A stretch of DNA of 36,570 nucleotides from a bacterium (GTDB taxonomy: Bacteria; Hydrothermota; Hydrothermia; LBFQ01; DSFT01), in contig JAUQPS010000006.1 in assembly GCA_030550205.1 (NCBI GenBank), forward strand, positions 1-36,570, written 5' to 3'. Numbering within the stretch: the stretch's first letter is position 1; each line of letters begins with the position of its first letter. A program made the translations under genes and the position numbers. Below the pieces are notes generated by a model. That model was not told where the DNA came from. It made no database searches and saw nothing but the letters and a program-made list of their open reading frames with translations. Of the stretch, positions 1,743 through 33,605 are shown piece after piece.

Positions 1743-1779
1743 AAATAGAGTAGTGCCAAAACAAAAAGGAGGTAATGAG

Positions 1780-2289
1780 ATGAGCTCAACTATACACAAA
1801 AAGATGGGTAAAATTGTATATTTCTTCGTGTTCCTGGGATTTGTTTTGTTCTTGGTTACTTGTAGTGGTGCTCAATCAGAAAAACCCCCTGCTACATCAT
1901 CAAAAACTGTCCAGTCCCAAACATCTGGAAGTGGGATTAACATGTGTAACATTTTGACCAAGGAAGAGGTAAGTGAGATTCTTGGTAAGAAAATCGTTGT
2001 CGCTAAGCTTGAACATCAAACTGGCGGTTTTCAGTGTGGTTATTATGGTCCAGACAACGATGGTCGGGCTTTCGTTGATTATGATATAAGTGAGGCTAGC
2101 CAGTATCGTTGGGAGCTTGCGAAACCTAAGGAGGTTATTCCTGGTCTTGGCGAGGTTTCTTGGAATGGTTTTTGGCTTTTTGCCTGGATCAATGGTGGAT
2201 TATTATCAATTCACGTGGTAGGAGTGGGTGAAAAGGGTAAGGATTTGGCTATTAGTATAGCGAAGAAAGTAAAGGGTCGGATAAAGTAG
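1780..2289 (+). CDS. Lipoprotein with cysteine-containing repeat-family domain (paralog 1)
   Basis: ATG 1780 is preferred because AAAGGAGG (1765-1772) lies seven bases upstream; an earlier in-frame GTG at 1753 would put the SD inside the gene. The N terminus has a basic start, a hydrophobic core and LVTC, a lipobox, so this is probably a lipoprotein of about 145 mature residues with a Ser/Thr/Pro-rich linker. The domain then starts with CNILTKEEVSEILGKKI and includes FQCGYYG, EVIPGLGEVSW, GGLLSI and a C-terminal AKKVKGRIK. The same order of motifs occurs in the proteins at 2313 and 3052, so the three are tandem paralogs. The family recalls small exported proteins such as DUF3558, but I cannot name it securely. 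At 2101-2160, 30 of 60 bases are G or C, against 10 of 60 at 781-840, which suggests transfer. Confidence 0.75.
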   Translation: MSSTIHKKMGKIVYFFVFLGFVLFLVTCSGAQSEKPPATSSKTVQSQTSGSGINMCNILTKEEVSEILGKKIVVAKLEHQTGGFQCGYYGPDNDGRAFVDYDISEASQYRWELAKPKEVIPGLGEVSWNGFWLFAWINGGLLSIHVVGVGEKGKDLAISIAKKVKGRIK

Positions 2290-2312
2290 TATTTTAGCGT
2301 GAGGTATGCAAA

Positions 2313-2744
2313 ATGAATGTAATTTTTATAATAGCTATGCTTTTTGAAAAGGGTAATGCCTGTGATCTTTTGGCTAAGAAAGAGGTGGAAGAGATCATGG
2401 GTGAGAAGATTGATTCTGTTGAGTTACAAGCTGGATACGGAAACTGCATTTACTATAAGAAAGATAAAGTTTTTGGACAGGTAATGAATCTTCCTATTGC
2501 TACTGTTGGTTTTTCAAGGAATGATGTTCAGGCTATTTGGAGTTATTGGTCTTCTATATCTAAGAAGGAGATTATTTCTGATGTTGGTGATGGGGCTATT
2601 TGGGCGCCAGAGTATGATTTTTTCGTTTGTCGTGTAAAGGGAGGGCTGTTGATGATTTCATTGGGAGGAAGCTCTGACGATGATAAAAAGAAGGAGATAG
2701 TAATTAAGTTGGCAAAAAAAGTTATAACTCGGATAAAGCCATAA
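2313..2744 (+). CDS. Small exported-type protein, paralog 2
   Basis: This 143-residue protein is closely similar to the one at 3052. Both have C-x-LL, an EVEEI-G-K-DSV stretch, QAGYGNCIYYK / QSGYGNCIYYR, a W-YW segment, the GDGA-W motif and CRVKGGLLMI. It starts at ATG 2313, eight bases after GAGG (2301-2304), 23 bases after the preceding stop. The N terminus is odd: MNVIFIIAML is hydrophobic but has no positive charge and is followed by FEKGNAC, so it is a weak signal peptide and may be degenerate compared with paralog 3. Function unknown. A strong terminator lies about 70 bases downstream. Confidence 0.7.
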   Translation: MNVIFIIAMLFEKGNACDLLAKKEVEEIMGEKIDSVELQAGYGNCIYYKKDKVFGQVMNLPIATVGFSRNDVQAIWSYWSSISKKEIISDVGDGAIWAPEYDFFVCRVKGGLLMISLGGSSDDDKKKEIVIKLAKKVITRIKP

Positions 2745-2812
2745 AGATGTGTGAGAATCTTTAATGATGAAACATCTAGTAGGCACATGTGTATATGTTT
2801 AGATAACTCCTT

Positions 2813-2834
2813 GCCCCCACTTGGGGGCTTTTTA
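2813..2834 (+). terminator. Rho-independent terminator after paralog 2
   Basis: GCCCCC (2813-2818), a four-base ACTT loop, GGGGGC (2823-2828) and a T-rich tail form a clear intrinsic terminator. Such a GC-rich stem is exceptional in this AT-rich window. Confidence 0.85.
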
Positions 2835-2872
2835 TACTTCATGTTTGATAATTATTAGAAATGGAGGCCTTG

Positions 2873-3040
2873 ATGATAACAGGAACTGACGCGAATGTTG
2901 GCAAGTTGGCTATTACACTGGCAGGTATCATCGTGCTTGTTATTTCTTCTACTCTAAGTGGAATCAAGCCACAAACTCCTATCTCAGAGGAGAGAAAAGC
3001 AGGGATTTTTCGGAGGCTAAAAGCTTTTGAAATACCCTGA
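2873..3040 (+). CDS. Small single-pass membrane protein (55 aa)
   Basis: This short frame is open from ATG 2873 (or ATG 2861, four codons earlier) to TGA 3038-3040. GGAGG at 2863-2867 is five bases before ATG 2873, which decides the start. The product has one hydrophobic segment (LAITLAGIIVLVISSTLSG) and then a polar, basic C-terminal tail with RRLKAF. It lies between the terminator and paralog 3, 11 bases before the latter's start, so the two are probably co-transcribed. Its G+C level matches the paralogs. It is not recognised; a role in membrane anchoring or a small toxin-like peptide are only possibilities. Confidence 0.5.
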   Translation: MITGTDANVGKLAITLAGIIVLVISSTLSGIKPQTPISEERKAGIFRRLKAFEIP

Positions 3041-3051
3041 GGTAATATAAC

Positions 3052-3507
3052 ATGAGGCTAAAAATCTATAACATTATGGTAGTAGCCATGTTCTTAACGA
3101 CATGGCAATTAGGGTATGCTGATACATGTGGCCTTTTGACCGAGGGAGAAGTGGAAGAGATTACCGGTCAGAAGGTTGATAGTGTGGGGGTACAATCAGG
3201 TTATGGAAATTGCATATACTATAGAAACGTAAATATCTTCGGGCAGATTATGAAAGCTCCTCTGGTTACCGTTGGTTACACAAGGAGTGATGTCCAGTCC
3301 CGTTGGGATTACTGGAATTCCAGACCAGATAAGGAGGTTATCCCTGGGCTTGGCGATGGAGCTGTGTGGTCACCGGGCGATGCCTTTCTGGTTTGTCGGG
3401 TCAAGGGTGGACTGTTAATGATCATGATATGGGGAGAAGTAGGCGATGGTTCAAAGAAGGACATGGCCGTTCAATTGGCCAGAAAGGCGATAACTCGGAT
3501 AAAATAG
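3052..3507 (+). CDS. Small exported protein, paralog 3
   Basis: This 151-residue protein has a good signal peptide: MRLK, a hydrophobic core, and likely cleavage after GYA, leaving DTCGLLTEGEVEEITGQKV. It shares with paralog 2 the YGNCIYY, GDGAVW and CRVKGGLLMI motifs and a C-terminal AxKAITRIK, and more distantly with paralog 1. Two conserved cysteines (in CGLL and GNC) plus a third in VCRVKGG suggest a disulfide-stabilised extracytoplasmic domain. GAGGT (3039-3043) is eight bases before ATG. The three genes show clear divergence, so this is an old tandem duplication or a multigene cassette acquired as a unit. No function assigned. Confidence 0.75.
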   Translation: MRLKIYNIMVVAMFLTTWQLGYADTCGLLTEGEVEEITGQKVDSVGVQSGYGNCIYYRNVNIFGQIMKAPLVTVGYTRSDVQSRWDYWNSRPDKEVIPGLGDGAVWSPGDAFLVCRVKGGLLMIMIWGEVGDGSKKDMAVQLARKAITRIK

Positions 3508-3622: not shown

Positions 3623-4204
3623 GTGACTTCCAACTTATATATTATTAATGTGGATAGGATAGATTTGTATACAATTTTTTGTGATATGGATAATACCTTG
3701 GTTTATACTAATTATGCTAATTATATAGCTTACAAGAGGGCTATAAGGGATGTATTAGATGAAAATTTTGTTTTCAATTCAAAATTAAGGCTTACGCGTG
3801 AGGTTATAAAGAAATTATTTCCTAATATAGATTATAAACAATATAATGCTATAATTAAACTTAAAGAGAAGTATTATAGTGATTACCTTTTTCTAACGAA
3901 GTTAAACTTGAATTTAGTTAATTTATTAAAAAAGTTTAAGAAAACAAGTAGAATAGTTTTAGTATCGTCAAGTAGGAAAATTAGAGTCCATCAGATATTG
4001 GATTATTATAAAGATGATATTCCAAAAGGAAAATTTTTTAATAAATATGAATATGCATTGTATGTTATGGGTGTTGATTCATCAAGAGTTATAATATATG
4101 AAGATGATTTAAATCAAGTTAAAAGCGCACTTGACTTTGGCATACCTTTGAAAAATATCGTTAATATAGACATAGGGGGTGATTATGAAAAAGTTTATTA
4201 TTAA
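3623..4204 (+). CDS. HAD-superfamily phosphatase, partner of the PRTase-DprA fusion
   Basis: The haloacid-dehalogenase signature is present: DMDNTL (nucleophile Asp21 and Asp23 counted from GTG 3623), motif II in VLVSSS, a lysine near KYEYAL, and motif IV in IIYEDDLNQVKSALDFGIP. About 190 residues with a helical cap between motifs I and II fit a small phosphatase of HAD type acting on a small phosphorylated molecule. The start is uncertain: GTG 3623 has GGAAGGGGG 11 bases upstream, while GTG 3650 gives a compact MDRIDLYTIFCDMDNTL start. The stop lies 20 bases inside the next gene, so the two are translationally coupled and likely act together, for example with the HAD acting on a ribose-phosphate or nucleotide product of the neighbouring phosphoribosyltransferase domain. 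That link is inference. Confidence 0.75.
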   Translation: MTSNLYIINVDRIDLYTIFCDMDNTLVYTNYANYIAYKRAIRDVLDENFVFNSKLRLTREVIKKLFPNIDYKQYNAIIKLKEKYYSDYLFLTKLNLNLVNLLKKFKKTSRIVLVSSSRKIRVHQILDYYKDDIPKGKFFNKYEYALYVMGVDSSRVIIYEDDLNQVKSALDFGIPLKNIVNIDIGGDYEKVYY

Positions 4205-5819
4205 AAAGAACAACTTTCTTTCAATAGATGTTTTGGGTTTCTATCATACTTACTATCTTGGATTTAATAAGCCCTGTAATCCGGACTACTTGAATATACT
4301 TAAAAATGATTTTAATAAACAATCACCAGCTTTGTTAAATAAAGCTTGTCAAGAAGTAGAAAAGATATTAGAGCAGGATTTACCTAAAATTCCAAAGGAG
4401 TTAGGTATTGAAAGGATGACTGTATGTGTTGTTCCCAGGGCTAAAGAACAAAGAAAATATCATTCAAATCAATTATTATTTAAGCAGGCAGTTAAAAATG
4501 TAGTATCAAAATTTAAAAATATATTTGAAGATGGCACAGATTATATACTTAGGATTAAAGATACTTTTACAACACATCTTGGAAATATAAAAGGTAATTA
4601 TGGTCCTGAGCCTTATCCTGGAATTACAAAAGATACTTGTAATATATCACAAAATGTAAAAGGTAAGGATATATTACTTGTTGATGATATTTATACACTA
4701 GGAGTTAATGTTGATGAAGATGCTATTGAGGCGTTATTTAAGAATGGTGCAAACTCTGTTACTTTCTATGCGGTTGCCTATACTCTTAAAAATTATACTC
4801 AAAATGCTTTAAATATCCTTACACTTCTTGAATATAAAGGGATTGGAAAGGATTTTATCGTTGAAAATATTCAAAAAATTAAAGAGATGGAAGAAAATAT
4901 AGATGATTTAGTTGATTGGGTAAATAGCATAATAAAGGAAAAAATTAGTATAAATGATTTTAAGCAAAAAAGAGAAAGTATTAAAAAGGAACTACAAAAA
5001 TGTGCTGATAATGATATTTATACTGTTGCTATTGGTGATGAAGCATATTCGGGACTTGTTGAACCTCGTATATCTCGTATAAATAAAATAAATAATAATG
5101 AAAAACCAATAGTGCTATTTCTAAAAGGGGATTTGAATTTACTATTAGATGAAAATAACTTAAATGTAGCGGTAATTGGCACTAGATATCCTAATGAAGA
5201 AGATGAACTTTTAGAAAAAGAAATTATTTGGTATTTATTAAGGAGAAGTAAGAAAGTTACTATACTTAGTGGTTTGGCAATTGGGTGTGATACAATAGCT
5301 CATAAGTCTGCTATTAAATATGGGGGTAAAACAATAGCAATTCTTCCAAGTCCAATTTTAAATATATTGCCTAAGAAAAATGAAAAACTTGCTAAGAAGA
5401 TTTTTGATAAGTGTGGATTACTAATATCTGAATATTACAAAGACCCTATTTCTAAGCAGGAATTAAAACGCAGGTATGTAGAGCGCGATCGCTTACAAGC
5501 TCTATTTAGTGATTGTATTATATTAATTGCAAGTCATGATATAAAGTATAAGCAAATTCTGAAAGGTCAAAAAAATGTTGATTTTGGTTCAAGACATGCA
5601 ATGAGATATGCAAAGAAGTTTGGAATTCTAAGAGCGGTTGTATATGATCATCAAAAACATTCAAATGATTTAAGATATAGCTTAAATAAAAAATTAGCAA
5701 ATGAAAAGTATGTAATAGCTATTAATGAGAGTAATAAAGTTGAAGTCATTAAGAAAATTTTGGAGAAGATTGAAAAAAGATATGATTTTAACGATATATG
5801 GGGAAAAAGGGGTTTATAA
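4185..5819 (+). CDS. Phosphoribosyltransferase-DprA (SMF) fusion protein, ShosTA-like candidate
   Basis: The protein has about 544 residues. Residues 1-200 carry a type I phosphoribosyltransferase fold with the PRPP-binding loop ILLVDDIYTLGVNVDEDAI (Asp167/Asp168). Residues 205-280 are a charged helical linker. From about 288 the sequence is DprA/SMF-like: YSGLVEPRISRI, then VLFLKGD, VAVIGTR (Gly332), LSGLAIGCDTIAHKSA (about 361-376), LLISEYYKD, RRYVERDRLQALFSD and GSRHAMRYAKKFG. That is the order of the DprA Rossmann fold. ATG 4185 is preferred over GTG 4179 because AGGGGGTG lies directly upstream. PRTase and DprA-like proteins occur as the separate toxin and antitoxin of the anti-phage system ShosTA (established knowledge); here they are one chain, with a HAD gene in front. 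Natural-transformation DprA is less likely because of the PRTase domain. Confidence 0.8.
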   Translation: MKKFIIKKNNFLSIDVLGFYHTYYLGFNKPCNPDYLNILKNDFNKQSPALLNKACQEVEKILEQDLPKIPKELGIERMTVCVVPRAKEQRKYHSNQLLFKQAVKNVVSKFKNIFEDGTDYILRIKDTFTTHLGNIKGNYGPEPYPGITKDTCNISQNVKGKDILLVDDIYTLGVNVDEDAIEALFKNGANSVTFYAVAYTLKNYTQNALNILTLLEYKGIGKDFIVENIQKIKEMEENIDDLVDWVNSIIKEKISINDFKQKRESIKKELQKCADNDIYTVAIGDEAYSGLVEPRISRINKINNNEKPIVLFLKGDLNLLLDENNLNVAVIGTRYPNEEDELLEKEIIWYLLRRSKKVTILSGLAIGCDTIAHKSAIKYGGKTIAILPSPILNILPKKNEKLAKKIFDKCGLLISEYYKDPISKQELKRRYVERDRLQALFSDCIILIASHDIKYKQILKGQKNVDFGSRHAMRYAKKFGILRAVVYDHQKHSNDLRYSLNKKLANEKYVIAINESNKVEVIKKILEKIEKRYDFNDIWGKRGL

Positions 5820-8787: not shown

Positions 8788-8790
8788 CCG

Positions 8791-8803
8791 AAAATTTTAA
8801 AGG
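8791..8803 (-). promoter_or_regulatory. Leaderless-type promoter of rpsO-pnp-radC
   Basis: Minus strand CCTTTAAAATTTT followed by CGG and ATG. Together with TATC upstream it forms one arm of a perfect 16-bp inverted repeat (8791-8806 and 8831-8846) shared with the divergent gene. Confidence 0.65.
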
Positions 8804-8814
8804 ATAACCCTTAC

Positions 8815-8851
8815 TTGATACTTTTAATTTTATCCTTTAAAATTTTGGACT
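8815..8851 (+). promoter_or_regulatory. Promoter of the PqqD-like gene with recognisable -35
   Basis: TTGATA (8815-8820), a 17-base spacer and TAAAAT (8838-8843) inside CTTTAAAATTTT; the ATG is at 8852, nine bases after the -10. This is the site that best shows that the recurrent element is a -10 region, with initiation at or within about two bases of the start codon. Confidence 0.7.
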
Positions 8852-12990: not shown

Positions 12991-13003
12991 AAAATTTTAA
13001 GGC
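12991..13003 (-). promoter_or_regulatory. Leaderless-type promoter of the panB-murG-rsmG operon
   Basis: Minus strand CCTTAAAATTTT then CAA and ATG 12987. The element covers the TAA stop (12997-12999) of the upstream lipoprotein gene. Confidence 0.6.
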
Positions 13004-13680
13004 TTAGTATAAAATACACCTAAGGTGCTTGAGCCATAGGCGATAAATGAAAACTTATAACCTGGATATGGCTTAAATTTATCTAAAATTGTATAATTTA
13101 CTAGAAATATTCTTATTTCATATCTACTATCCTTTGTATCAATATAATAACCTGGAATTACAATGCTGTCAGTTTCTTTTGGTAAAAAATCTGTTTGATA
13201 AACAAGTGTAGGGTTTTTACTTTTATTTTCAAAGAAAACAACAAATTTATAATCATAAGTTTGAGTATATTTTTGACTTACTTTCCATTTAACTATTAAA
13301 TCTTGATATAATGATATGGTTTGAGATTCAGGATAGATAATAATAAATGTATCAGGAAGATAAATCGTTTTAAAATCAATGCTTTCAGAAATATCTCCAT
13401 AAAATAGCTTTAAGTTATATGGCTTATTCTCATAATAAGGATACTCTAAAACATAAAATGGATGAATATAATTTAGTTTTTGGTCATTAAGAAATATACT
13501 TGCATCTGATATAACTTGTGAGTTTTTTACATCATATAGCGCAGTATAAATTGTGCTAAATCCTGCTTGAGAATCTTTATAGAAAATCCCATATAAACTT
13601 ATATCATAATTTGAACTTGACTTTTTACAAGATATAAAGAAGACAAGAAAAATTGTTAAAAAAATTAAAGTCCTTTTCAT
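12997..13680 (-). CDS. Lipoprotein, paralog of the upstream gene
   Basis: The 227-residue product starts MKRTLIFLTIFLVFFISCKK, a lipoprotein signal with Cys at position 18. The mature part is beta-rich with many Tyr, Ser and Asn. It shares with the protein at 13677-14333 the segments ISDASIFLNDQKLNY / ISDATVKINDNNISYNG, LIVKWKVSQ / IYIRWQYYTN and FKPYPGYKFSFIAYG / FDPYPNFPSSLIFIG at matching positions, so the two are diverged tandem paralogs, perhaps with Ig-like sandwich domains. The start overlaps the upstream stop by four bases. Function unknown; the location with a beta-barrel lipoprotein suggests a cell-envelope complex. Confidence 0.7.
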   Translation of the reverse strand: MKRTLIFLTIFLVFFISCKKSSSNYDISLYGIFYKDSQAGFSTIYTALYDVKNSQVISDASIFLNDQKLNYIHPFYVLEYPYYENKPYNLKLFYGDISESIDFKTIYLPDTFIIIYPESQTISLYQDLIVKWKVSQKYTQTYDYKFVVFFENKSKNPTLVYQTDFLPKETDSIVIPGYYIDTKDSRYEIRIFLVNYTILDKFKPYPGYKFSFIAYGSSTLGVFYTKP

Positions 13681-14333
13681 CTTATTTTAATAACCTTATT
13701 AGCTCCTCTTCCTATAAAAATCAAAGAACTTGGAAAATTCGGATAAGGGTCAAAATTTTCAATAATGCAAAAGTTTCCACTTATAAATAATAAATCATAA
13801 TCACCAATTTCTAAATTTGAAGTATTCAACTGATAGCTTGTATCTCCAATAGGAATATAACCACTCCCAAAACTAAATTCAGCACTTCCTCCTTTTCTTA
13901 ATAATATCATATTATTCCCACTTGGATTAGTATAGTATTGCCACCTTATGTAAATGCTTTCACCCTTATTTACACTATCTCTATCAGTATAAATTTTTAC
14001 ACTATCCAAATCATTTGATAAACAATTTAAACTTATATTGTAGTTCTGAAAACTTATATCAATTTTATAGTTTTGATTTTTTTTGTAATTTAAAATTGCT
14101 GCATAACCAAATGCGGCTCCATTATAACTTATATTATTATCATTTATTTTAACAGTTGCATCTGATATATATACATTGTCAGTTAAGTTTTTAATTCTAA
14201 TAAGAGCACTTGCTAAGGTATCAGGATATCCATATAAAGTATTTATCGTCCCTGCAATAGCATATTTTGTTATATTTTTATTTTCCTGTTTTCCACATCC
14301 CAATAACATTAAAACAAAAATTAGAATTATCAT
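13677..14333 (-). CDS. Lipoprotein, paralog of the downstream gene
   Basis: The 218-residue product begins MIILIFVLMLLGCGKQENKN with a clear lipobox (LLGC). The beta-rich domain aligns by motif order with its downstream neighbour (see that entry), including the C-terminal PYP-x5-S-x-I-x2-G pattern. ATG overlaps the stop of the upstream gene by four bases. It has no SD or promoter element of its own, so it depends on the element at 14903. Confidence 0.7.
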   Translation of the reverse strand: MIILIFVLMLLGCGKQENKNITKYAIAGTINTLYGYPDTLASALIRIKNLTDNVYISDATVKINDNNISYNGAAFGYAAILNYKKNQNYKIDISFQNYNISLNCLSNDLDSVKIYTDRDSVNKGESIYIRWQYYTNPSGNNMILLRKGGSAEFSFGSGYIPIGDTSYQLNTSNLEIGDYDLLFISGNFCIIENFDPYPNFPSSLIFIGRGANKVIKIR

Positions 14334-14896
14334 CTTATAAAACCAAAACCTATGTTAAATATGGGAACATTGTAATCTGGTCTTAAATAGATGTTTATAC
14401 CACCTTGAACGAATGATTTATTGTAAATAATTGAAAGTGAGTTTAAAGATGTTATAATGCTAAAATTCTTGTAATCATAGATAAGTTTTAAAATCCCATA
14501 GAAATACTTTTGATTATAAGGTTTGAAAGGTCTTAAATTTAAATCTATATCATATATAACTTCACTTTTTAAACTTAAATTATTTAAAATGCGGTTTTTT
14601 ATGCCAACATTTATTCTTAAATAATTTGATGTATCTGAGAAGTTTTCAAATACTTGATATTGATTTAAGCTTGTTAAATTAATGTTAAATGAAAAATTTT
14701 CATATATTCTTTTTTCAAATCCACTGTTTATTATAATTTCCGAAAGGCTTTTGTCCCCCGATGGGGTTTTTGCTTTACTAACACTTACTCCATAAAATCC
14801 ATTTATAAATATATTATTAGATATTCTTGCTCTTTCCATCGTTATATTGTATCCACTACAACCAATTAGCAAAATAAATAAAAACTTCTTTATAAT
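14330..14896 (-). CDS. Outer-membrane beta-barrel-like lipoprotein with non-canonical start codon
   Basis: The frame is open upstream of the first TTG (14872) through ATT AAA-type codons: ATT 14896, ATA 14893, then KKFLFILLIGCSGYN. That is a typical lipoprotein signal (K-K, hydrophobic core, LIGC). Starting at TTG 14872 would leave only MLIGCS, too short for export, and no ATG, GTG or TTG exists earlier in the frame. The promoter element ends six bases before ATT 14896, the usual distance here, so initiation at ATT (or ATA 14893) is likely. The mature part alternates polar and hydrophobic residues (INLTSLNQYQVF, YLRINVGIKNRI, FGFIR end) like a small outer-membrane beta-barrel of about 8 strands. 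First gene of a three-gene operon. Confidence 0.65.
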   Translation of the reverse strand: MIKKFLFILLIGCSGYNITMERARISNNIFINGFYGVSVSKAKTPSGDKSLSEIIINSGFEKRIYENFSFNINLTSLNQYQVFENFSDTSNYLRINVGIKNRILNNLSLKSEVIYDIDLNLRPFKPYNQKYFYGILKLIYDYKNFSIITSLNSLSIIYNKSFVQGGINIYLRPDYNVPIFNIGFGFIR

Positions 14897-14902
14897 AGTT
14901 TT

Positions 14903-14914
14903 AAAATTTTAAAG
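14903..14914 (-). promoter_or_regulatory. Leaderless-type promoter of the lipoprotein operon
   Basis: Minus strand CTTTAAAATTTT, followed by AAAACT and then ATT ATA AAG AAG. The perfect element argues that translation starts at the ATT or ATA codon. Confidence 0.6.
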
Positions 14915-15144
14915 CATTAGATACCGACTTTAAAGTGAAGGAGAAATTTGAGAACAGGGACTTCCACCTCTTCCCATTAAAATGTTCTAAAATAAAATCA
15001 TGAAAATTAAATCCTCACGATTCTAAATTTTTATTACTTGTGAAAGAATAATCTTCAAATAGGGCACCCATCACCTTAAAATTAAGCAAATAGAGAGGTC
15101 TTTTTTAAAAACAACAAGTTAAGTTTTCAATAATTTTAAACTCA
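14915..15144. other. Intergenic region without recognised gene
   Basis: About 230 bases separate two divergent promoters, far more than any other divergent pair here. I see no SD-preceded frame, tRNA or terminator. There is an imperfect inverted repeat AATCATGA ... TCACGATT (about 14997-15024) and a short GGGCACCC palindrome near 15062. The stretch near 14960-14990 (CAGGGACTTCCACCTCTTCC) is richer in G+C than its surroundings. A small RNA or a decayed insertion is possible but not shown. Confidence 0.3.
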
Positions 15145-15156
15145 CTTTAAAATTTT
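15145..15156 (+). promoter_or_regulatory. Leaderless-type promoter of rtcB
   Basis: CTTTAAAATTTT, then seven bases to ATG 15164. A weak TTTTCA lies 18 bases before the TAAAAT core. No SD. Confidence 0.6.
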
Positions 15157-15163
15157 AAACATT

Positions 15164-16612
15164 ATGAAAGATTGGAGAAAAATTTTGGAGAAAATCACGG
15201 ATTATAAGTGGAGATTACCAAAAACATATAAATCAAATATGAATGTAGATGGAATTATCTTTGCTACAGAAGACTTATTAAATGATATAATTGAAGAAGG
15301 TGAAGCGCTTGAACAAGTTGCTAATGTAGCAACATTACCAGGTATTGTTAAGAATTCCATAGCTATGCCTGATATTCATTGGGGATATGGTTTTCCTATT
15401 GGAGGGGTTGCTGCATTTGATCCAGAGAATGGAGGGATTATAAGTCCTGGTGGTGTTGGATATGATATAAATTGTGGTGTTAGAATCATAAAAACGAATT
15501 TAACTGAAAAGGATATTGAAAAATATAAAGTAAAATTAGCGGATAAGTTATTTGATTATGTTCCAAGTGGTGTTGGAGCAAGAAGTAAATTTAAATTTTC
15601 TGATAAAGAATTAGAGAATATAACAGAACAAGGTTTAAAATATCTATCAAAACTTGGTTATACGTGGGATGATGATTATAACTATATAGAAGAGTTTGGA
15701 AGTATGCCAGGAGCGGACTTTTCAAAAGTTAGTCAAACTGCAAGAGATAGGGGTAGGGATCAACTTGGAACACTTGGAAGTGGAAACCATTTCTTAGAGG
15801 TTCAAATTGTAGATGAAATTTTTGATGAAGAAATTGCTAAAAAATTTGGTTTGTTTAAGGGTCAAGTTGTAATTATGATACATTGTGGAAGTAGAGGATT
15901 TGGACATCAAATAGCAAGTGATTATATAAGGGAGTTTGATAAAGTTTTAAATAAATATGGAATTAAGCTTGTAGATAAACAATTATCTTGTGCTCCATTT
16001 AACTCTAAGGAAGGTCAGGATTATTATAAGGCTATGGTTTGTGCTGCAAATTTTGCTTGGTCAAATAGACAATTAATTACATATCAGGTAAGAAAGGCAT
16101 TTAGTGAAGTTTTAAATAGAAGTGCAGAATCTCTTGAAATGAAGATATTATATGATGTTGCTCATAATATAGCAAAGTTAGAGGAATTTAATAATAAAAA
16201 GCTTGTAGTTCATAGAAAGGGAGCAACAAGGGCATTACCAAAAGGACATAAATTATTACCCCCTGCTTATAAGGATGTAGGTCAGCCTGTTCTTATTCCT
16301 GGGGATATGGGAACATATTCATATGTTCTTGTAGGTATGAAAAATTCTATTGAAGAATCATTTGCAAGTTCTTGTCATGGAGCAGGAAGAGTATTATCTA
16401 GAAGTAAAGCAAAGAAAATTGTTCAAAAGACATCATTATTAAAGAAATTATCAGAGAAGGGTATTGTTGTAAGAGCAGAAAGTGATGCTACTCTTCTTGA
16501 AGAAGCACCAGAAGCATATAAAGATGTTAGTAAAGTGGTTGAAGCAGTTGAGCTTGCAGGAATAAGTAAAAAGGTTTCAAGACATAGACCAATAATTGTA
16601 GTAAAAGGTTAG
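15164..16612 (+). CDS. rtcB: RNA-splicing ligase RtcB
   Basis: The 482-residue protein matches RtcB, the GTP- and Mn-dependent ligase joining 2',3'-cyclic phosphate or 3'-phosphate ends to 5'-OH RNA. Key segments: MPDIHWGYGFPIGGVAAFD, GYDINCGVR (Asp101, Cys104), LGSGNHFLEVQ, MIHCGSRGFGHQIA, DVAHNIAK, VHRKGATRALPKG (His350), PGDMGTYSYVL and SSCHGAGRVLSRS (His405, the expected guanylylated His). Length equals the archaeal/thermophile type. There is no archease gene or rtcR/rtcA next to it, so a role in RNA repair or tRNA splicing cannot be distinguished. Confidence 0.97.
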   Translation: MKDWRKILEKITDYKWRLPKTYKSNMNVDGIIFATEDLLNDIIEEGEALEQVANVATLPGIVKNSIAMPDIHWGYGFPIGGVAAFDPENGGIISPGGVGYDINCGVRIIKTNLTEKDIEKYKVKLADKLFDYVPSGVGARSKFKFSDKELENITEQGLKYLSKLGYTWDDDYNYIEEFGSMPGADFSKVSQTARDRGRDQLGTLGSGNHFLEVQIVDEIFDEEIAKKFGLFKGQVVIMIHCGSRGFGHQIASDYIREFDKVLNKYGIKLVDKQLSCAPFNSKEGQDYYKAMVCAANFAWSNRQLITYQVRKAFSEVLNRSAESLEMKILYDVAHNIAKLEEFNNKKLVVHRKGATRALPKGHKLLPPAYKDVGQPVLIPGDMGTYSYVLVGMKNSIEESFASSCHGAGRVLSRSKAKKIVQKTSLLKKLSEKGIVVRAESDATLLEEAPEAYKDVSKVVEAVELAGISKKVSRHRPIIVVKG

Positions 16613-16939: not shown

Positions 16940-16944
16940 AATTT

Positions 16945-16956
16945 AAAATTTTAAAG
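16945..16956 (-). promoter_or_regulatory. Leaderless-type promoter of the SufT-like gene
   Basis: Minus strand CTTTAAAATTTT, five bases before ATG 16939. It sits beside the opposite-strand element at 16959 within a 34-base intergenic region. Confidence 0.6.
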
Positions 16957-16958
16957 CC

Positions 16959-16970
16959 CTTTAAAATTTT
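16959..16970 (+). promoter_or_regulatory. Leaderless-type promoter of the leucyl aminopeptidase gene
   Basis: CTTTAAAATTTT followed by CGT and ATG 16974. Its upstream region is the neighbouring promoter, leaving no independent -35 box. Confidence 0.6.
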
Positions 16971-16973
16971 CGT

Positions 16974-33559: not shown

Positions 33560-33562
33560 AAG

Positions 33563-33574
33563 AAAATTTTAAAG
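33563..33574 (-). promoter_or_regulatory. Leaderless-type promoter of thiolase
   Basis: Minus strand CTTTAAAATTTT followed by CTT and ATG 33559. Confidence 0.6.
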
Positions 33575-33589
33575 CTTAAAAGGGTAATG

Positions 33590-33601
33590 CTTTAAAATTC
33601 T
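33590..33601 (+). promoter_or_regulatory. Leaderless-type promoter of sucD
   Basis: CTTTAAAATTCT then CACT and ATG 33606. It shares a 46-base intergenic region with the thiolase promoter. Confidence 0.6.
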
Positions 33602-33605
33602 CACT

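Follow-up and report, generated by a model that had tools for sequence, protein, structure and literature searches.

Animal mitochondria translate leaderless mRNAs that start with AUG, AUA, or AUU, with a modified tRNA-Met and with AUA read internally as Met. Among bacteria, an unbiased selection in mycobacteria recovered ATG and GTG as the sole codons able to initiate leaderless mRNAs and showed that ATT works only behind a Shine-Dalgarno (SD) sequence (PMC4633059). Leaderless initiation in Escherichia coli strongly prefers AUG, and according to a review, the recognition of leaderless starts is not understood (PMC9031893). In Deinococcus-Thermus, a -10 box adjoining leaderless ORFs has been shown experimentally (PMC12340547). 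The AUU and AUA starts of infC, cvfC1, and ccpN in Staphylococcus aureus rest on extended SDs (PMC13009471). Among open-access sources, mostly titles and abstracts, we found no report of AUU or AUA starts on leaderless bacterial mRNA or of leaderless translation in WOR-3.

The locus described here lies in a stretch of 36,570 nucleotides (the window), contig C178 of the 1.89-Mb draft MAG of an uncultured candidate division WOR-3 bacterium. Its lipoprotein gene (positions 14330 to 14896, minus strand; an open frame of 188 codons counted from ATT) was proposed in a sequence-only reading to start at ATT or ATA on a leaderless mRNA. The sister genome used for comparison was that of candidate division WOR-3 bacterium SKYB27 (G001), and statements about the genus refer to these two genomes. 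The window PNPase is 84% identical to the PNPase on SKYB27 contig JANXBH010000010.1 (60,446 bases, with 91x in its name). Gene counts cover portions of approximately 776 kb of the window MAG and 733 kb of SKYB27. As set out below, initiation at AUU (or AUA) on a leaderless mRNA, tolerated in this genus, is the best reading of the gene and a likely one.

A -10-like element lies a few nucleotides before many starts

The lipoprotein gene is preceded by the element CTTTAAAATTTT (positions 14903 to 14914, minus strand), a putative -10 box of a leaderless or nearly leaderless transcript, as judged by positional enrichment and spacing. CTTTAAAATTTT is found upstream of many starts within the window, where 8 TTTAAAATTTTAAA-like sites were present versus 1.57 expected in shuffled sequence, and none of 100 shuffles reached 8. 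TTAAAAT was located 5 to 14 nt before the first canonical start of 174 of 660 genes in the window MAG and 186 of 633 genes in SKYB27. The element is thus present at 26 to 29% of genes in both species, and its distance to the start peaks at 6 to 10 nt. Elsewhere upstream, the background was 8 to 10 occurrences per 10-nt bin, which makes the enrichment approximately twentyfold. The consensus over the 660 and 633 genes is (G/A)CTTTAAAATTTT, and no -35 box was visible 5' of the element among the genes of both species. The promoter element that had been described as intact is therefore real by its enrichment, and we infer its promoter role from the spacing, since such a peak is what the -10 box of leaderless or nearly leaderless mRNAs gives. 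The divergent RtcB-like gene serves as a comparison site (positions 15145 to 15166, plus strand): the same CTTTAAAATTTT is followed there by a normal ATG at 15164. SD-like sites were found before 113 of 660 genes in the window MAG and 82 of 633 in SKYB27; therefore, both initiation modes exist.

Three divergent gene pairs in the window (positions 8788 to 8851, 16940 to 16973, and 33560 to 33605) carry the element on both strands of a short spacer (AATTTTAAAG ... CTTTAAAATTT). This arrangement suggests compact back-to-back leaderless promoters.

The lipoprotein gene has no canonical start before its signal peptide

The minus-strand frame runs TAA (14911) AAT TTT AAA ACT ATT (14896) ATA (14893) AAG AAG TTT TTA TTT ATT TTG (14872) CTA ATT GGT TGT. 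No ATG, GTG, TTG, or CTG occurs in frame between the TAA at 14911 to 14909 and the TTG at 14872, and the 33 nt 3' of the gene's TTAAAAT contain no ATG, GTG, or TTG in any frame. The signal peptide IIKKFLFILLIGC is intact and is read directly as KKFLFILLIG with the lipobox LIGC (positions 14858 to 14893, minus strand; Cys at 14860 to 14858). KKFLFILLIGC presents the charged n-region, hydrophobic stretch, and lipobox cysteine of a lipoprotein only when the start is ATT or ATA. The first conventional start, TTG (positions 14870 to 14872, minus strand), was the ORF finder's call (14330 to 14872) and lies inside IIKKFLFILLIGC, so a canonical start is impossible without sacrificing the signal peptide. 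Direct reading of the minus strand thus bears out the earlier statements that the signal is intact, that only ATT 14896 and ATA 14893 stand at the expected start, and that TTG 14872 would remove the signal. The protein had no match to a Pfam family, and a scan of genome contigs with it did not find relatives. Two lipoprotein-like genes follow on the same strand (ORFs 13677-14333 and 12997-13680; 12997 to 14333 overall); because the ATG of each overlaps the preceding stop (ATGA), translation of both is probably coupled to that of the first gene.

Initiation 5' of the element was rejected, because an in-frame TAA at positions 14911 to 14909 (minus strand), within CTTTAAAATTTT itself, intervenes and excludes it, barring readthrough. 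An upstream start with an SD, which the sequence-only reading had named as the observation that would count against it, was looked for and not found; the sequence upstream of the ATT is TTTAAAATTTTAAAACT, without an SD. An in-frame ATG at 14917 (ATG CTT TAA), absent from that reading, is cut off by the element's TAA. On a longer mRNA, translation could begin at this ATG, two codons from the stop, and proceed by readthrough of the TAA or by re-initiation after it. A re-initiating ribosome would be near the ATT and ATA, and re-initiation could aid nonstandard codons. However, the TAA is part of an element seen at hundreds of genes, and MurJ and the OPT, MFS, MtnA, and heptosyltransferase genes discussed below have no such upstream in-frame ATG. 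There is also no upstream gene for coupling, since the upstream neighbor is divergent. We regard the longer mRNA as very improbable.

AUU is the probable start codon, at a site shared with SKYB27

The ATT (positions 14894 to 14896, minus strand) begins 9 nt past TTAAAAT, and the ATA (positions 14891 to 14893, minus strand) begins 12 nt past it. Among canonical leaderless starts of the window MAG, 37 of 187 are at +9 and 0 of 187 are at +12. ATT is also the start-site codon common to both species in MurJ and RlpA. Because the +9 spacing is common and +12 is unused, ATT 14896 is favored over ATA, and the gene probably starts with AUU.

The only orthologue found was that of SKYB27, which is 56% identical. 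It reads TTG AGA AGA TTA TTA TTT GTT TTA TTA AGT GGT TGC, beginning eight nt after TTAAAAT, and aligns without gaps to ATA AAG AAG TTT TTA TTT ATT TTG CTA ATT GGT TGT in the window gene, so that its TTG faces the ATA. Its signal peptide, MRRLLFVLLSGC, has the same architecture. Since TTG occupies the equivalent place, the initiation site is the same and the codon alone differs. Orthologues had been suggested as a check for an ATG at this position, and the sole orthologue has TTG there, not ATG.

If the start has been lost, the gene may be decaying, or TTG 14872 may give rise only to a truncated protein that stays in the cytoplasm. Decay commonly sets in with start loss, and TTG is a used start in these species (21 of 187 leaderless genes in the window MAG and 27 of 193 in SKYB27). 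Such a loss is nevertheless unlikely: all 188 codons are intact in a genome of approximately 28% GC, the signal peptide and lipobox are intact, and the downstream genes are probably coupled through ATGA overlaps. Substitutions between the window gene and its orthologue are concentrated at the third codon position (57/45/94 by position), and MurJ is in the same state in both species, which is hard to see as decay.

Ten element-bearing genes lack a canonical start

Two scans were performed, one for open frames that carry the element but no canonical start and one, motif-free, over 240 reciprocal-best gene pairs. A gene was kept only if an orthologue, a signal peptide, or a match to a family profile supported it. 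Many matches from the motif-only scan were rejected as chance, being within genes, antisense, or next to an SD-led ATG, and were left out of the count. Across the two species, ten element-bearing genes have no canonical codon at the expected protein start. The codons at the expected place are ATT or ATA in eight, GTA in one, and CTG in one, with MurJ and RlpA counted once each. Measured from TTAAAAT in the window MAG, ATT is at +5 in MurJ (L247), at +5 in RlpA, and at +6 in an OPT transporter. In SKYB27, MurJ has ATT at +6, and RlpA has ATA at +5 and ATT at +8, with 0 ATG, GTG, or TTG in 209 codons. ATA is found at +6 in an MFS gene, at +5 and +8 in MtnA, at +8 in CoaX, and at +10 in a PCuAC lipoprotein whose window MAG orthologue has ATG there. 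The SKYB27 heptosyltransferase (GTA at +6) and ZIP transporter (CTG at +9; a TTG seven codons downstream is a possible start) are weaker cases.

Family profiles place the protein start at these codons. Position 3 of NCBIfam TIGR01695 aligns at residue 3 of MurJ in both species, position 2 of TIGR00512 at residue 4 of MtnA, position 3 of TIGR00671 at residue 4 of CoaX, and position 1 of TIGR00733 at residue 4 of the OPT transporter. The next in-frame canonical codon in these four is 24 to 65 codons downstream. In a search with MurJ, the query was approximate over its last ~14 residues, and the match covered residues 1 to 69. No purine-rich SD precedes the ATT or ATA of the window gene, MurJ, RlpA, OPT, or MtnA. 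Following the start of normal leaderless genes, 22% of two-codon stretches and 37% of three-codon stretches contain ATT or ATA; against 0.22 to 0.37 expected, 8 of 10 gives binomial values of 0.0001 and 0.007, which are guides only, because genes were selected partly by hand.

This recurrence bears on the possibility that positions 14891 to 14896 contain an error of sequencing or assembly, or represent a minority strain, and that the population has ATG there. A single base change makes ATG of either codon, and the window belongs to a draft MAG that is 86% complete with 6.7% contamination in 210 contigs. Against this, nine other element-bearing genes show the same pattern, the two separately assembled species have ATT in common in MurJ and RlpA, and errors would need to strike start codons selectively. 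A base error is also unlikely in the SKYB27 contig, given the coverage in its name (cov_91). Because the pattern recurs and both species have ATT in MurJ and RlpA, a chance read error is an unlikely explanation, and we give an error or variant at the window gene little credence. Together, these data are strong evidence that neither sequencing error nor decay is the general cause. The same recurrence and shared ATT support the AUU/AUA start on leaderless mRNA put forward by the sequence-only reading.

Outside these ten, a lipoprotein gene on L068 near 4189 is a candidate for the same pattern. The SKYB27 copy of the OPT transporter (L074:1485-2328) appears pseudogene-like, because its match is split over several pieces and frames; the window MAG copy, with the ATT start, is intact.

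The ATT of MurJ and RlpA is present in both species

At the start site, MurJ has ATT AAA CTC AAA TCC in the window MAG and ATT AAT TTT AAA TCT in SKYB27; the MurJ family in another genus starts TTG AGA TTC. RlpA has ATT ATC TTT in the window MAG and ATA ATT CTT in SKYB27, with the ATT of both species in one column of the gap-free protein alignment; in that other genus it has ATG CCC ATG. The dN and dS values were 0.136 and 1.06 for RlpA, 0.175 and 1.44 for MurJ, and 0.32 and 2.27 for the window gene, giving ratios of approximately 0.12 to 0.14 with dS near saturation. For the window gene, two sequences cannot tell which lineage carried the constraint. The ATT of MurJ and RlpA thus appears to have been kept in both species under purifying selection.

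The inspected initiation machinery is ordinary

In each of the two genomes, the sole match to the initiator stem-loop GGG-CUCAUAA-CCC has the anticodon CAU. An altered initiator anticodon was therefore rejected, as the CAU loop is normal and flanked by three G-C pairs. Loss of IF3 was also rejected, since IF3 is present and aligns normally; the candidate starts of its own gene, after AAGGAGGT, are TTG and ATT. The initiator tRNA of this genus (L254:1472-1545 and L255:1472-1545) has a C1-U72 mismatch, and that of a neighboring genus (L256 and L257) has the usual C1-A72. Because IF3 and the initiator anticodon are ordinary, the tolerance is unexplained by the inspected parts of the machinery.

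Element-free starts and other observations

RdgB/HAM1 (L097:3316 and L136:5294, both minus strand) begins CTG AAA 2 to 3 nt after tRNA-Tyr in both species, and the TIGR00042 profile starts at the residue after the CTG. Possibly, 3' processing of the tRNA releases an mRNA with a CUG start. Pyruvate dehydrogenase E1-alpha (L083:9558, minus strand; L151:15619, plus strand) has no ATG, GTG, or TTG for 95 and 34 codons, respectively, past its conserved KFNRE start, and an SD-like AGGAGG or AAGGAG is found upstream in both species. In the window MAG, AGGAGGGTAA is directly 5' of AAG TTC, so an SD-led non-NTG start is possible. By eye, window positions 4179 to 5819 encode a 546-amino-acid protein with phosphoribosyltransferase-like and DprA-like parts seemingly in one frame, and positions 1753 to 3507 encode three tandem paralogues (178, 143, and 151 amino acids) with signal peptides and a common C..LT..EV.EI.G.K motif.

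Discussion

The genes described here resemble the leaderless genes of Deinococcus-Thermus and mycobacteria in having, at many genes, a -10-like motif a few nucleotides before the start, with no -35 box and no SD (PMC12340547, PMC4633059). They differ at the codon: in those bacteria the 5' end carries ATG or GTG, whereas the expected starts here include ATT or ATA, GTA and CTG once each, and many TTG. The window gene, with ATT or ATA, thus departs from the mycobacterial rule of a 5'-terminal AUG or GUG. Third-position near-cognate starts conserved between species are also known from infC of E. coli and S. aureus and from cvfC1, ccpN, and citZ of S. aureus (PMC13009471). The S. aureus infC, cvfC1, and ccpN starts are few, regulatory, and behind an extended SD; here there is no SD, the window gene has no extended SD of the infC or ccpN kind, and the affected genes include housekeeping ones, among them MtnA and the cell-wall gene murJ. 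Unlike animal mitochondria, these bacteria have a bacterial initiator tRNA whose anticodon loop is ordinary, and we assume the standard code.

In the mechanism that we propose, CTTTAAAATTTT would drive an mRNA that begins at, or a few bases 5' of, the lipoprotein coding sequence and has no SD. The ribosome (70S or 30S) would probably load with fMet-tRNA on the free 5' end and initiate on AUU 14896, with AUA 14893 as the less likely site. The ordinary CAU anticodon of the initiator would pair with a third-position mismatch, and Met would be inserted. The start is perhaps picked by its proximity to the 5' end and not by the identity of the codon, and AT-rich drift perhaps converted some AUG and UUG to AUU and AUA. 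The genus would tolerate nonstandard starts in a few percent of its leaderless genes. A broader version is more tentative and falls somewhat short of an even chance: start codon identity may be relaxed genus-wide, with 5' position defining the start on leaderless mRNAs, with AUU, AUA, GUA, and CUG all serving, and with some element-free genes (RdgB and pyruvate dehydrogenase E1-alpha) included.

If AUU or AUA does initiate these leaderless mRNAs, the AUG/GUG rule for the leaderless 5' end, thought to be general in the bacteria studied, would not be universal. Standard gene finders would truncate or miss such genes in such genomes. The genus, with murJ among the affected genes, would offer a natural setting in which to test what determines the choice of start.
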